Assembly: GCA_902632445.1 (NCBI GenBank) | Contig: CACPCL010000006.1 | Location: forward strand, 1 to 60,852 | DNA length: 60,852 bases | Reading direction: 5' to 3' | Source: an uncultured Pelagibacteraceae bacterium | GTDB lineage: Bacteria; Pseudomonadota; Alphaproteobacteria; Pelagibacterales; Pelagibacteraceae | Part shown: in pieces, positions 10,605 to 51,071 of the stretch | Layout: every line of letters begins with the position of its first letter | Position numbering within the stretch: the stretch's first letter is position 1 | Position numbers and translations under genes: made by a program | The notes under the pieces: generated by a model | Seen by the model: only the letters and a program-made list of their open reading frames with translations | The model's database searches: none | Told to the model about the DNA's origin: nothing

Positions 10605-10690
10605 CCGCAAATACACATGTTTTTGCGGTGCTCTTAAAAACAAGAGTGTCGACACTAGTCAGCGAAGGTTCGCCCACTAGTGCGATAGGT
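10605..10690 (+). ncRNA. Candidate structured RNA or structured leader upstream of ffh
   Basis: Three adjacent inverted repeats occur in about 85 bases. First, CCGCAAA and TTTGCGG enclose a 10-base loop (10605-10628). Second, CTCTT and AAGAG enclose a short loop (10631-10646). Third, CACTAGT and ACTAGTG (10653-10682) enclose an inner GCGA-AGGT-TCGC hairpin, and can be extended by TCG/CGA around a bulged A. The segment appears less AT-rich than its surroundings. Position before ffh suggests a leader RNA or an SRP-related RNA, but the conserved 4.5S apical loop (GGAAGGAAGCAG type) is not present, so no family is assigned. The strand is inferred from ffh. Confidence 0.4.
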
Positions 10691-41225: not shown

Positions 41226-42362
41226 TTAAGAGCTGAAAAGTTTGATAGCGTAATTTAACTGGTTATCTTTTTCAGAATTTATTAAAAAGTCTTCACCTTT
41301 TTCTTCTACTAGTATATCTGGAGTTACACCTACTTCAGAAATTGATTTACCTGATGGCAAATAATATTTAGAAATTGTTAGTCTTATTCCCCCTCCATTT
41401 TTTAATGGTATAATAGACTGAACCGAACCTTTTCCATATGAGTTTTCACCTAATATAATCGCTCTCTTGTGATCTTTCAAAGCACCTGCAAGTATTTCAG
41501 AGGCAGATGCAGAACCATTATTAATTAAAATTACTATTGGCTTCCCCTTAATCTCATCTCCTTTTCTTGCAAAAAACTTTCTTGTTTCTGAAACCTTTCT
41601 TCCTTTAGTTGATACAATTTCACCATCTTCCAAGAAAAAATCAGTAATATTTATTGCTTGTGTTAATAAACCACCGGGATTATTCCGAAGGTCAATTACA
41701 TAGCCTTTTAGGTTAGGCATTTTTTCATATTTTTTTACAGATTTTAAAAACTGCTTATCGCTATTCTCATTAAAAGATTTTAATCTTATGTAGCCTATGT
41801 TTTTTTCTTCACCAATTATTTCTGAACTAACCGACTGAACCTCAATAACTTTCCTAACAATTGTAAATTCTAATGGTTTTTTAACATTTTTTCTTCTTAC
41901 GGTTAAATCAATTGATGTGCCCACTGGTCCCCTCATTAATTTTACTGCCTCTAATAAAGATTTTCCTTGAACTTGTTCTTTACCAATTTTAACAATGTAA
42001 TCTCCTGATTTAATACCCGCTCTAGCAGCAGGAGTATCATCAATAGGAGAAATTACTTTCACTACTCCTGCTTCCATACCAATTTCAATACCCAACCCAC
42101 CAAACTCGCCTTTTGTATCAGTCTGCATTTCTTTAAAAAGTTCTGGACTCATATAGGCGGAGTATGGATCTAGTGACTGAAGCACTCCATTAATAGCAGA
42201 GTCCATCATTTCTGCTTGATCGACTTCATCAACATAATCTTTTTGAATATTTTCTAACACCTCACCAAAAAGATCTATTTTTTCATAAAGATCGCTTTTT
42301 GAATAAACTATTCCCGAGAAAATGTTAAAAATAAAAATTGATAAAATTAAAATTTTTTTCAT
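41226..42362 (-). CDS. ctpA: Carboxyl-terminal processing protease CtpA (S41)
   Basis: This 378-residue periplasmic serine protease cleaves C-termini of exported proteins. It has a signal peptide (MKKILILSIFIFNIFSGIVYSKS), a PDZ domain (EAGVVKVISPIDDTPAARAG to about residue 165), and the S41 catalytic Ser in NNGSASASEILAGAL near 295 with Lys in NSYGKGSVQ near 322. The ATG at 42362 is chosen because the signal peptide starts there and it overlaps the rsfS stop (ATGA). A longer reading from 42398 would place extra residues before the signal. Confidence 0.94.
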   Translation of the reverse strand: MKKILILSIFIFNIFSGIVYSKSDLYEKIDLFGEVLENIQKDYVDEVDQAEMMDSAINGVLQSLDPYSAYMSPELFKEMQTDTKGEFGGLGIEIGMEAGVVKVISPIDDTPAARAGIKSGDYIVKIGKEQVQGKSLLEAVKLMRGPVGTSIDLTVRRKNVKKPLEFTIVRKVIEVQSVSSEIIGEEKNIGYIRLKSFNENSDKQFLKSVKKYEKMPNLKGYVIDLRNNPGGLLTQAINITDFFLEDGEIVSTKGRKVSETRKFFARKGDEIKGKPIVILINNGSASASEILAGALKDHKRAIILGENSYGKGSVQSIIPLKNGGGIRLTISKYYLPSGKSISEVGVTPDILVEEKGEDFLINSEKDNQLNYAIKLFSS

Positions 42363-48091: not shown

Positions 48092-48685
48092 TTAACCTAT
48101 TAAAAAAATCCCTAATTTTGAAAAGAGATTTTTTATTTCTAAATTACCTTTTTTTATTAATGAAGTTGTATCTTCATTAACCCCAATAACTTTCTTTATA
48201 TTAATATTTTTTTCATCACAAAACTTAAATAAATCTTTAATTGTGCACATATGTAAATTAGGAGTATTATACCAAGTATTCGGTAGAGTTTTTGTTACCG
48301 GCATTTCACCAAAAAATAAAAGCTTTATTCTTACTTTCCAATACCCAAAATTTGGGATCGAAACTATTACTGATTTTCCTATTCTTAAAAGATTTTTTAA
48401 AACTTCCTCTGGCTCATAAAAGGCTTGTAACGTTTGGCTTAGGACAACATAGTCAAATGATTTATCAGGAAATTGATGAAGTTCAGTTTCCGCATTCCCT
48501 TGTATTACTGGTAATCCCTTGTGAATACACTGTTGCACATTATCTTGATTAAGTTCTAATCCACGAACTTCTATATTTTTTTCTTGTTTGAGAAAATTCA
48601 TAAGAGACCCATCTCCACAGCCAACATCTAAAACCCTGGTATCATTCGGCAACAATTCAGCAATTACTTTAAATTCTTTTTTCAT
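48092..48685 (-). CDS. metW: Methionine biosynthesis protein MetW
   Basis: This 197-residue protein has a SAM-methyltransferase-like fold, with VLDVGCGDGSLMNFL near residue 18, YVVLSQTLQAF near 80, and SIPNFGYWKVR near 110. MetW proteins accompany MetX in alphaproteobacteria and are thought to support MetX activity. The start overlaps metX by 17 bases, which fits a shared function. Confidence 0.93.
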   Translation of the reverse strand: MKKEFKVIAELLPNDTRVLDVGCGDGSLMNFLKQEKNIEVRGLELNQDNVQQCIHKGLPVIQGNAETELHQFPDKSFDYVVLSQTLQAFYEPEEVLKNLLRIGKSVIVSIPNFGYWKVRIKLLFFGEMPVTKTLPNTWYNTPNLHMCTIKDLFKFCDEKNINIKKVIGVNEDTTSLIKKGNLEIKNLFSKLGIFLIG

Positions 48686-49808
48686 TTTTAAACTTTTCGT
48701 ACATTGAATCTATAAAACTCTTTAATGTTTTTAAAAATTCTGGCTCATTTAATAAGAACGAGTCATGTCCTTTGTCTGTAATGATTTCTGAGTAAGAAAC
48801 ATCAGCACCAGATGCATTTAATGCGATCACAATATCTTTATTTTCTTTCGTCGTATAAAGCCAGTCAGATGAAAATGATATTACTAAAAATTTCGTATTT
48901 TGTTTTTTAAAAGCTTCGACCAAACCACCATTATATTGTTTGGAAAGATCAAAATAATCCATTGCTCTTGTTATATAAAGTATTGAATTTGCATCAAACC
49001 TTTCTACAAAAGCATAACCTTGATGTCTCAGATAACTTTCAACTTGAAAATCTGCATTAAAACTAAATTCATAATCAGCTTTTTCTTGTAATTTTCTTCC
49101 AAATTTTTCCTGCATACCTTTTTCAGATAAATAACTTATATGCCCAACCATTCTTGCTACTGCCAAACCATTTTTTGGCTGTACATTTTTGGATACATAT
49201 TTTCCATTTTCCCATACAGGATCAGCCATTATTGCTTGGCGCGCTAATTCGTTTAATGCAATATTCTGGGCACTATGGCTTGAACTACAAGCGATTGGAA
49301 TAGCAGAGAAGGCTTTATCCGGAAAAGTTGCACAGAATTGTAATAATTGCATTCCTCCCATTGATCCACCGGTCGCACATAAAAGTTTTTTAATTCCAAG
49401 ATGTTCAAGTAAAGACTCTTGAGCTCGCACCATATCTCTTATCGTAATAACTGGGAAATCTAATCCGTAAGGCATCTTTGTATCAGGATTAATATTTTTT
49501 GGTCCTAAAGAACCCATGCAACCACCAATAACATTAGCACAAATCACAAAATATTTGTTTGTATCTATAGCTTTACCTGGGCCAACTGCAGTGACCCACC
49601 ATCCCTCTTTTTTTGTAATCGGATTGGTTCCAGTAACGAATTGATCACCAGTTAATGCGTGAAAAACAAGAACTGCATTGTCTTTATTTCCATTCAATTT
49701 TCCATAAGTTTCGTACGCAAGTGGAAAATTACTTATCGTCTTTCCACAATCAAGCTTAAGTGATTTAGAAACATTTAATTTCTTTATATTTTCAAGTTTT
49801 ACATTCAT
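48669..49808 (-). CDS. metX: Homoserine O-acetyltransferase MetX
   Basis: This 379-residue alpha/beta hydrolase-fold enzyme activates homoserine for methionine synthesis. It has LAYETYGKLNG, VLVFHALTGDQFVTG, the nucleophile elbow GGSMGGMQLLQF near residue 150, and the late catalytic His in DKGHDSFLL near 350. The ATG at 49808 is chosen as it lies just beyond the T-run of the riboswitch terminator. An in-frame ATG at 49838 would read through that terminator. Expression is probably controlled by the SAM-II riboswitch upstream. Acetyl rather than succinyl specificity is assumed from family name only. Confidence 0.93.
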   Translation of the reverse strand: MNVKLENIKKLNVSKSLKLDCGKTISNFPLAYETYGKLNGNKDNAVLVFHALTGDQFVTGTNPITKKEGWWVTAVGPGKAIDTNKYFVICANVIGGCMGSLGPKNINPDTKMPYGLDFPVITIRDMVRAQESLLEHLGIKKLLCATGGSMGGMQLLQFCATFPDKAFSAIPIACSSSHSAQNIALNELARQAIMADPVWENGKYVSKNVQPKNGLAVARMVGHISYLSEKGMQEKFGRKLQEKADYEFSFNADFQVESYLRHQGYAFVERFDANSILYITRAMDYFDLSKQYNGGLVEAFKKQNTKFLVISFSSDWLYTTKENKDIVIALNASGADVSYSEIITDKGHDSFLLNEPEFLKTLKSFIDSMYEKFKNEKRI

Positions 49809-49810
49809 CC

Positions 49811-49836
49811 AAAAAAAAAGCCCAGCTAAACTGGGC
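49811..49836 (-). terminator. Intrinsic terminator of the metX SAM-II riboswitch
   Basis: On the minus strand GCCCAG, loop TTTAG and CTGGGC are followed by nine T, ending two bases before the metX ATG. The segment TTTAGCT (49830-49824) in the loop and 3' stem is fully complementary to AGCTAAA (49852-49846) at the aptamer 3' end, giving a plausible antiterminator. Confidence 0.88.
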
Positions 49837-49838
49837 AT

Positions 49839-49892
49839 CCCCCTTTTTAGCTACATTTGTTATGCGCTTGCAATACGGTTAAATCAGCGCGA
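49839..49892 (-). promoter_or_regulatory. SAM-II riboswitch aptamer upstream of metX
   Basis: The minus strand reads TCGCGCTGATTTAACCGTAT and continues TGCAAGCGCATAACAAATGT, then AGCTAAAAAGGGGG. This closely follows the known SAM-II class as I recall it, including the marine metagenomic aptamer used for the crystal structure: P1 stem GCGCT/AGCGC, the GATTTAACCGTATTGCAA loop, and the AAATGTAGCTAAAAAGG pseudoknot strand. SAM-II riboswitches sense S-adenosylmethionine and repress methionine genes in alphaproteobacteria. The promoter just upstream places the transcript start at about the first aptamer base. Confidence 0.95.
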
Positions 49893-49896
49893 GATA

Positions 49897-49925
49897 TTTT
49901 TACTAAATCATCACAAACTTGTCAA
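49897..49925 (-). promoter_or_regulatory. Promoter for the metX riboswitch transcript
   Basis: On the minus strand TTGACA (49925-49920, perfect -35) is followed after 17 bases by TAAAAA (49902-49897). The expected start point is near 49890, matching the 5' end of the aptamer. Confidence 0.7.
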
Positions 49926-49985
49926 TTTTATATAAGATAAAGAGTTATAGAAAAACTCTAACAATTTAGATAATACTTAAATAAA

Positions 49986-51071
49986 ATGACATTTCCTAAA
50001 CCAAATAAGATAGTTGCTGAAAAGTACGTAGCTGGAATGAGCTTGTTTAAAAGCAAATTAGCTAAAATAAAATTGTCTGCTAATGAGTCAGCTCTAGGGC
50101 CAAGCCCAAAATCAAAAAAAGAATATCTTAAAGTAGCTAAAAGTTTTGCAAGATACCCAGACTCTGACGGAACATTTTTAAGAAAAACTTTATCTGATAA
50201 ATTTAAATTAGATAAAAATAGAATTATTTTAGGATCAGGTTCAGATCAAATTTTTGAATTGGTTTGTAAATCTTTTTTAAAGAAGGGTGACGATGTGATC
50301 GTACCTAAATACAGTTTTATTATTTACAGGATTTACAGCAAAATGAATGGAGCGAAAGTTATTTATTCGAAAGAGGATAATTTTACAGTTTCAGTTAATG
50401 ACATAATAAATAAAGTTACAAAAAAGACGAAAATTGTTTTTTTGGCTAATCCTAACAACCCAACTGGTACTTATATTAAAAAAAAAGATTTACTATTTTT
50501 AAGAAAAAAACTGAGAAGCAATATTCTATTAGTTGTTGATGATGCTTATTTTGAATACGTAAAACAAAAAGATTATCTTTCAGCTTTAAAGATTTTCAAG
50601 AATTACAAAAATGTTGTAATGACAAGAACCTTCTCAAAAATTTATGGGCTAGCAGGATTAAGAGTTGGATGGGGTTATGCATCTAAAGAAATTATAAATG
50701 CACTTAATAAAGTTAAACCTCCGTTCAATGTAAGCAGGCCAGCTTTATTTGCTGCATCTGCAGCAATTAAAGATAGTTTATGGCTCAACAAAGAAATAAA
50801 GCACGTAAATAAATGGAATAAAAAAATGTTTAATGAGTTTAAAAAAATGAAAATTGAAACTAACAAAAGCTATAGTAACTTTTTGTTAGTGAATTTTGAT
50901 AGAGTAAAAATAAATTCATCAAAAGTTTTTAAACTGTTAGCCAAAACTGGAATTCTAGTTCGTAAAATGGATGTTTATGGTATTAAAAATTCACTCAGAA
51001 TAACAATTGGAAAAAGTGATGAAAATAGAAAATTAATTTCAAAAATGAAAAAAATATTAAATGTTCAATAA
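49986..51071 (+). CDS. hisC: Histidinol-phosphate aminotransferase
   Basis: This 361-residue PLP enzyme is a class I/II aminotransferase of the HisC family. It shows KLSANESALGPSPK at the start, SGSDQIFELVCKSFLKKGD near residue 79, NPNNPTGTYIKKKD near 155, and the PLP Lys in TRTFSKIYGLAGLRVGWGY near 217. Because tyrA overlaps it by 11 bases, it may also transaminate aromatic precursors, as reported for some HisC homologues. It is divergent from metX. Confidence 0.93.
   Translation: MTFPKPNKIVAEKYVAGMSLFKSKLAKIKLSANESALGPSPKSKKEYLKVAKSFARYPDSDGTFLRKTLSDKFKLDKNRIILGSGSDQIFELVCKSFLKKGDDVIVPKYSFIIYRIYSKMNGAKVIYSKEDNFTVSVNDIINKVTKKTKIVFLANPNNPTGTYIKKKDLLFLRKKLRSNILLVVDDAYFEYVKQKDYLSALKIFKNYKNVVMTRTFSKIYGLAGLRVGWGYASKEIINALNKVKPPFNVSRPALFAASAAIKDSLWLNKEIKHVNKWNKKMFNEFKKMKIETNKSYSNFLLVNFDRVKINSSKVFKLLAKTGILVRKMDVYGIKNSLRITIGKSDENRKLISKMKKILNVQ

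Follow-up and report, generated by a model that had tools for sequence, protein, structure and literature searches.

A SAM-II riboswitch whose SAM-binding strand is complementary to a downstream terminator loop points to transcription attenuation of metX in Pelagibacteraceae

The best-studied SAM-II riboswitch, that of a metX gene from the Sargasso Sea metagenome (structure 2QWY; PMC8525861), is described as hiding, or probably hiding, the ribosome-binding site (PMC10907184, PMC9373788, PMC6061858, PMC5352136). The class as a whole is presented otherwise in the accessible portions of the literature, where most SAM-II switches are called transcriptional (PMC6061858), are most often linked to terminators in alpha- and beta-Proteobacteria (PMC2258182) and, for Agrobacterium metA and other terminator-bearing members that we compare by description only, carry a promoter immediately ahead of P1, with putative terminators lying past P2 and before the open reading frame (PMC1273637). 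The initial annotation of the locus reported here, which held that most SAM-II switches are described as concealing the ribosome-binding site, was therefore off in this respect; terminator-type SAM-II switches have already been described. In Sinorhizobium meliloti, both metZ and metA combine a SAM-II aptamer with a terminator (PMC9373788). In Candidatus Pelagibacter ubique, a SAM-II riboswitch ahead of metX has been published (PMC2704228), and the class before bhmT and metX has been described as affecting transcription (PMC5069961); the accessible text of these two papers describes no terminator or antiterminator for metX. With respect to the tandem SAM-II/SAM-V RNA of bhmT, the predicted role of the SAM-II part is to terminate transcription (PMC9481103); according to the available sections of PMC11508383, the SAM-II half responds to SAM on its own, but not in the full-length RNA, a result there called puzzling, and oligonucleotides directed to the linker restore the response.

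We analysed a 60,852-nucleotide stretch of DNA (the window) from an uncultured Pelagibacteraceae bacterium. Within it, metX (homoserine O-acetyltransferase; 48669-49808, minus strand, start codon 49808-49806) and a divergent hisC (49986 onward) flank a minus-strand leader in which the hexamer TTGACA is followed by a SAM-II aptamer and then by a terminator with its U9 tract. The metX product scores 510.8 bits against NCBIfam NF001209 (cut-off 331; translation of the query began at 49811, which added one leading residue), and that of metW (48092-48685, minus strand), the next same-strand gene, which overlaps the end of metX, scores 234.7 bits against TIGR02081 (cut-off 189.5). The aptamer is thus located ahead of a methionine/SAM gene, i.e. 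metX, followed by metW, and, because hisC diverges, the terminator separates the promoter from metX and has no upstream gene to serve. The -35 hexamer TTGACA (49920-49925, minus strand), identified from the sequence and by a promoter scan, occurs no more than 70 nt 5' of the aptamer in 86 of the 87 distinct metX leaders of the window's genus. The probable -10 hexamer, TAAAAA (49897-49902, minus strand; 17-nt spacer), was assigned by eye and is a weak match; the promoter scanner preferred AAAAAT and a spacer of 18 nt. A transcript start near 49891, at the edge of P1, is plausible, as in the earlier placement of the start at the aptamer edge.

The aptamer (49841-49892, minus strand) is coextensive with the 52-nt model RNA and was assigned by a sub-threshold RF00521 match, by our model R1 and by 49/52 identity to the model RNA. 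P1 is formed by GCGCU (49886-49890) and AGCGC (49868-49864), and AGCUAAA (49846-49852, all minus strand) provides the 3' strand of P2, including SAM-pocket nucleotides, as well as the 5' strand of a candidate antiterminator. In an alignment of 14 aptamers, the SAM-II core (P1 with GAUUUA, UUGC, GCUAAA and AGG) is largely invariant. The window RNA differs from the SAM-II wild-type sequence printed in PMC8494917 at three of the 52 positions (30, 32 and 34), which correspond to the end of P1 and the loop behind it, and retains the 2QWY triple positions G8, U11, U12, U20, U21, C23, G42, A45 and A46. Base triples in 2QWY involve G42, A45 and A46 (PMC3764141), all of which map into the AGCUAAA strand of the window. 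The triples named in the accessible part of that paper fit the numbering of the printed 52-mer; nucleotide 52 is printed as A in PMC5352136, so the crystal construct may differ from the 52-mer at that position. The exact 52-mer is present in two contigs of our genome collection, from the uncultured Pelagibacteraceae AG-914-J05 and AG-918-M15, where it is followed by GATGCCCAGTTTAGCTGGGC, T9, GG and the metX ATG. From the matching numbering, we take the printed 52-mer to be the crystal RNA.

In a search of 501 bases, RF00521 scores the window leader at 28.4 bits (E 1.7e-4), below its gathering score of 36 bits, and the aptamer is thus missed by a scan of the window at the gathering score, which returned no SAM-II match. 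Rfam matches above cut-off elsewhere in the window are Rp_sR47 at 41378-41690 (plus strand; 60.5 versus 60 bits) and ffh RNA at 10638-10690 (plus strand; 42.4 versus 35 bits). Across the genus, RF00521 matches at E up to 0.1 in 94 of 121 genomes, none of the 121 passing the gathering score; two genomes holding the exact model 52-mer (G186 and G303) reach 34.1 of the 36 bits, so the cut-off excludes recognised members and we maintain membership on other grounds. Model R1, built from 14 SAR11-type aptamers and ending 5' of the terminator, gives 65.2 bits at 49843-49892, the window's own sequence being in its training set, and, with E up to 1e-4 as the limit, has a match in 287 of the 297 genomes of the family. 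The only SAM-V match in the window leader (18.3 of 41 bits, E 2.2) falls on the SAM-II aptamer, and the metX ATG lies 2 nt behind the U tract, which excludes the tandem type; viral contigs scanned with a degenerate aptamer pattern yielded nothing. The SAM-II identity proposed in the initial annotation hence stands on the likeness to the model RNA, the intact core and the metX context, and falls short on the RF00521 score. Annotation by the Rfam SAM-II cut-off will overlook these riboswitches in the window's genus.

Behind the aptamer, at 49836-49820, lies the hairpin GCCCAG-TTTAG-CTGGGC (5' arm GCCCAG, 49831-49836; 3' arm CUGGGC, 49820-49825), which is followed by a U9 tract (49811-49819, all minus strand) and is separated from the metX ATG by GG only, as had been described from the first inspection. 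The AGCTAAA of the aptamer (49852-49846) and TTTAGCT (49830-49824, minus strand), which takes in the whole terminator loop plus the first bases of the 3' arm and would also be the antiterminator 3' strand, are exact reverse complements, again in agreement with the earlier reading; the CCC of the 5' arm (49835-49833) is able to extend this helix by pairing with the aptamer GGG. A terminator scan of 49700-50100 returned one site, compared with a mean of 0.3 in shuffles. The 23-nt terminator piece folds at -12.0 kcal/mol, which is equalled by 2/200 shuffles, and the 29-nt antiterminator hairpin at -11.9 kcal/mol, with 6/200 shuffles folding as well; the stability of the whole 81-nt leader is ordinary (36/200 shuffles as stable, z -0.82). 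With respect to folding order, P1 forms first and antiterminator pairing is at 0.95-0.98 from the emergence of TTTAGCT until the 3' arm is complete; once seven of the nine U residues are made the values are 0.72 for the antiterminator and 0.26 for the terminator, and with the full U9 the best fold flips to one containing the terminator (-21.8 to -24.4 kcal/mol). In silico and by comparison, pairing of the aptamer strand with the terminator excludes both that strand's own place in the aptamer and the terminator hairpin. Since the folding programs ignore pseudoknots and SAM, we infer the default state in the cell.

We consider it highly likely that the SAM-II riboswitch controls metX, and probably metW too, by transcription attenuation; high S-adenosylmethionine would very probably stop transcription ahead of metX. 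From the sequence we infer that RNA polymerase would start at the aptamer edge and that the window RNA would bind SAM. Without SAM, the AGCUAAA (plus GGG) of a half-formed pseudoknot would capture the emerging (CCC plus) UUUAGCU before the 3' arm is complete, and this antiterminator pairing would lead to read-through into metX. With SAM, AGCUAAA would be held in the P2/L1 triplex, GCCCAG-UUUAG-CUGGGC-U9 would form and transcription would stop 2 nt before the AUG. The initial annotation had proposed such a mechanism in outline, and the proposal agrees with the sequence, with the order of folding and with the comparison among related leaders.

The comparative data come from leaders fetched from genomes via RNA-model matches, mostly the better-scoring ones, such that counts refer to leaders with a recognisable aptamer; the aptamer search expression itself demanded GCTAAA. 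Five of 306 loci were dropped because they did not match this expression, and 320 occurrences among 325 loci gave 292 distinct contexts; the sequences are related and leader counts are not independent. With that proviso, an intrinsic terminator between the aptamer and the open reading frame was called in all 87 distinct metX leaders of the window's genus and in 60 of 61 from five related lineages, namely the second family (33/33), g6 (15/16), g7 (7/7), g9 (4/4) and g14 (1/1); one of the 16 g6 leaders had no terminator called. In the genus, the hairpin loop TTTAG and the hexamer TTTAGC are both kept in 87/87 leaders and T9 in 85/87, and the linker just 5' of the hairpin occurs in 24 variants. 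The complementary 7-mer, which includes the base before GCTAAA, is present in 77/87, the remaining 10 being without the seventh pair. In the second family the stem differs, being ACCGCC/GGCGGT or ACCACC/GGTGGT in most leaders, and the loop, mostly CTTAGTTG, still pairs with CAGCTAA with one G-U; two second-family leaders (L011 and L182) have UAAG in place of UUAG, which breaks the pairing.

The covariation of the two 7-mers in metX relatives, which had been suggested as a check, proved uninformative, GCTAAA and TTTAGC being invariant in the genus: because bases that bind SAM lie in the unvarying GCTAAA, a lack of covariation is inapplicable as a refutation, and the invariant core pairing neither supports nor opposes the helix. 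Strand swaps, sister leaders and loop permutation were used instead. Cis duplexes are stronger than swapped ones, with means of -10.97 and -8.23 kcal/mol, respectively, across 67 distinct strand/terminator types, and none of 20000 permutations is as strong, figures that overstate independence because relatedness was not kept. The sister set comprises SAM-II leaders that precede genes other than metX (tandem SAM-II/SAM-V leaders among them, the genes being judged by eye), of which 68/78 fit a CCACC/GGTGG frame and give 30 distinct strand pairs; the ten left out are L154, L203, L241, L248-L252, L285 and L286. The terminator loop of the sister leaders lies at a fixed distance from the stem, and in this fixed register 88.6% of positions in the 30 types are paired, compared with 28-54% when slid by 1-3. 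With terminators shuffled among the types, pairing is 83.4 +/- 0.8% and 0/10000 shuffles reach 88.6%, a control that likewise ignores relatedness and overstates independence.

The sister helix changes on both sides. The three bases behind GCTAAA change together with the terminator (GCG/CGC, TAG/CTA and ACG/CGT), TAG/CTA being found in three types, all from g3, and ACG/CGT in three types from g9, g16 and g17. Changes on both sides occur at pairs 3, 10 and 11 in 4, 6 and 3 of the 30 types, respectively; pair 3 is T-A in seven types, A-T in four and non-standard in 18, and the two-sided change at pair 11, which is confined to g3, is possibly a single event. When transcripts were ended 4 nt into the 3' arm, the SAM strand was more than 50% paired to the terminator region in 215 of the 220 terminator-bearing leaders, and permuting the loop letters lowered the median early pairing from 0.99 to 0.25, with 143 of 146 distinct leaders above their own control. 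Medians at the U tract vary with the lineage: for antiterminator and terminator, respectively, the genus has 0.37 and 0.62, the second family 0.00 and 0.95, g7 0.05 and 0.94, and g6 metX 0.82 and 0.00. Taken with the early pairing, these values imply that the antiterminator has a head start, but not a clear final advantage.

That the terminator often wins in full-length in silico folds would accord with a fixed attenuator, lowering metX output without being switched by SAM, and in S. meliloti metA the terminator limits expression strongly in both media, with no SAM-II-driven antiterminator predictable according to the available text of PMC9373788. Unlike S. meliloti metA, the window leader has a predicted antiterminator, and we regard a fixed attenuator as very unlikely here, given that the loop is complementary to the SAM-binding strand in 87/87 leaders, that the equivalent sister helix changes two-sidedly and that permuted loops lose their pairing with the SAM strand.

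A translational switch, in which SAM would bury the ribosome-binding site AAAAAGGGG in P2, translation would begin at AUG1 and the hairpin would be incidental, would accord with the Shine-Dalgarno-hiding role given to the model RNA in the accessible parts of PMC10907184, PMC9373788, PMC6061858 and PMC5352136. AUG1 (49836-49838, minus strand) is an in-frame ATG directly behind the aptamer GGGGG, and among the 55 of 87 genus leaders with an ATG 5' of the terminator loop it is in frame with metX in 54, a shared frame that is accounted for by the constant hairpin and U9. However, the purine run of the window adjoins AUG1 with zero spacing, the position is without ATG in 32/87 genus leaders, the inspected leaders of g7, g9 and g14 have a U-rich stretch behind the aptamer in its place, and the terminator stands between AUG1 and the conserved start. 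AUG1 with P2 as its ribosome-binding site was consequently rejected for want of spacing and conservation; it is not conserved and is probably not the metX start. In the window leader we found no Shine-Dalgarno sequence in P2 at a usable distance from a conserved AUG, and a purely translational switch thus appears most improbable.

Somewhat less doubtful, though still unlikely in our view, is dual control, in which SAM would raise termination and the pseudoknot would also limit ribosome access in the read-through mRNA, the purine run lying in the aptamer and the AUG about 30 nt further on. Such control is reported for S. meliloti metA, whose leader likewise leads from an aptamer with Shine-Dalgarno sequence through AUG1 and a terminator to an in-frame AUG2, and which uses AUG2 with the distant Shine-Dalgarno sequence (PMC9373788, from the portion available). 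By eye, there is no close Shine-Dalgarno sequence ahead of the AUG at 49808; however, many g3 metX leaders are likewise without a clear one (also by eye), so its lack here means little, and in the antiterminated form the GGG is paired with CCC.

Other metX leaders differ in what follows the aptamer. No terminator was called in the g3 (0/57) and g5 (0/5) leaders, and the two called in g2 (2/4) are both weak and without a long T run; a hairpin with a long T run is absent from 57/57 g3, 5/5 g5 and 4/4 g2 metX leaders. In g3, which we take to be the Ca. Pelagibacter ubique group, the 57 leaders examined are without a window-type terminator; the aptamer gives way directly to U5-U9, behind which stands CTCACAATTC or a near variant (exact in 44/57). 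The leaders with this CTCACAATTC platform are L126-L128, L130-L148, L150-L153, L155-L157, L160, L161, L163, L164, L166-L181 and L195-L202. The CTCACAATTC element is nearly complementary to the aptamer's TGAATTGCGAG (57/57), with no GC-rich terminator, and represents a different expression platform; for the best 11-nt stretch, complementarity to the aptamer is 10/11 in 47/57 leaders, compared with 1/57 after one shuffle each. In the g2/g5 leaders (L253-L259, L283 and L284), GAGG or AAGG follows the aptamer, and a short hairpin that has no long U tract leads on to the ATG; this may be a translational platform in which the hairpin bridges Shine-Dalgarno sequence and AUG. The SAM-II platforms of metX thus differ between sister genera. 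In g4 (L154 and L247-L252), the aptamer precedes a MetW-like gene (judged by eye), and an A/T-rich hairpin takes the place of the GC-rich terminator. One RF00521 match (L040; G432:C4:71444-71525) has a longer loop and a short open frame next, and is of neither the metX nor the tandem type.

The bhmT SAM-II/SAM-V RNA of Ca. Pelagibacter ubique resembles the window in having an aptamer followed by a terminator with a loop complementary to the SAM strand; the window differs in its single aptamer, the absence of SAM-V, its GCCCAG/CTGGGC stem rather than CCACC/GGTGG, and the metX gene that follows. We located the published bhmT sequence in one of the 397 genomes searched (L326 in G011), with matches to the three primer sites. 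The SAM-binding bases given in the accessible part of PMC11508383 for this strand, U46, A47 and A49, lie in GCUAAA 44-49 of the bhmT construct. On folding the full-length RNA, the SAM strand is at 0.999 in an antiterminator-type helix, CCUGCUAAAGCG/CGCUUUAGACAGG (12 pairs, one bulge), and such pairing may explain the lost SAM response of the full-length bhmT RNA. The published rescue by oligonucleotides is another matter: blocking the primer 2 or primer 3 site in silico barely lowers the pairing (0.998 and 0.984, respectively), so the antiterminator model does not explain it and was rejected as its cause. In seven other leaders we blocked the poly-U, or the stretch behind it, in silico. Pairing fell from 0.94 to 0.15 and 0.11 in L162 and, only with the poly-U blocked, from 0.45 to 0.18 in L129; L239 started at 0.19, and L124, L125, L165 and L293 changed little.

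The Sargasso metX riboswitch has the same gene and 49/52 of the aptamer in common with the window, and AG-914-J05 and AG-918-M15 share the terminator and TTTAGCT; it differs in that the available literature treats a 52-nt RNA, without terminator, as translational. In the passages of the literature that we searched there is no report of a terminator behind the Sargasso metX aptamer, a weak absence. The terminator-type SAM-II class is not new; the surprise is to find the model 'translational' RNA within it. We think it reasonably likely that the Sargasso metX riboswitch is, in its natural setting, a co-transcriptional attenuator in which the SAM strand acts as antiterminator, and that the same pairing makes the SAM-II of full-length SAM-II/SAM-V RNA blind to SAM, with the decision falling only in a short phase of transcription. 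The metX aptamer has been studied as hiding a ribosome site on a 52-nt RNA that stops just short of a terminator present in both genomes in which the exact sequence occurs. If it is indeed an attenuator, the rates that matter would be those at which the pseudoknot and the antiterminator form during transcription.
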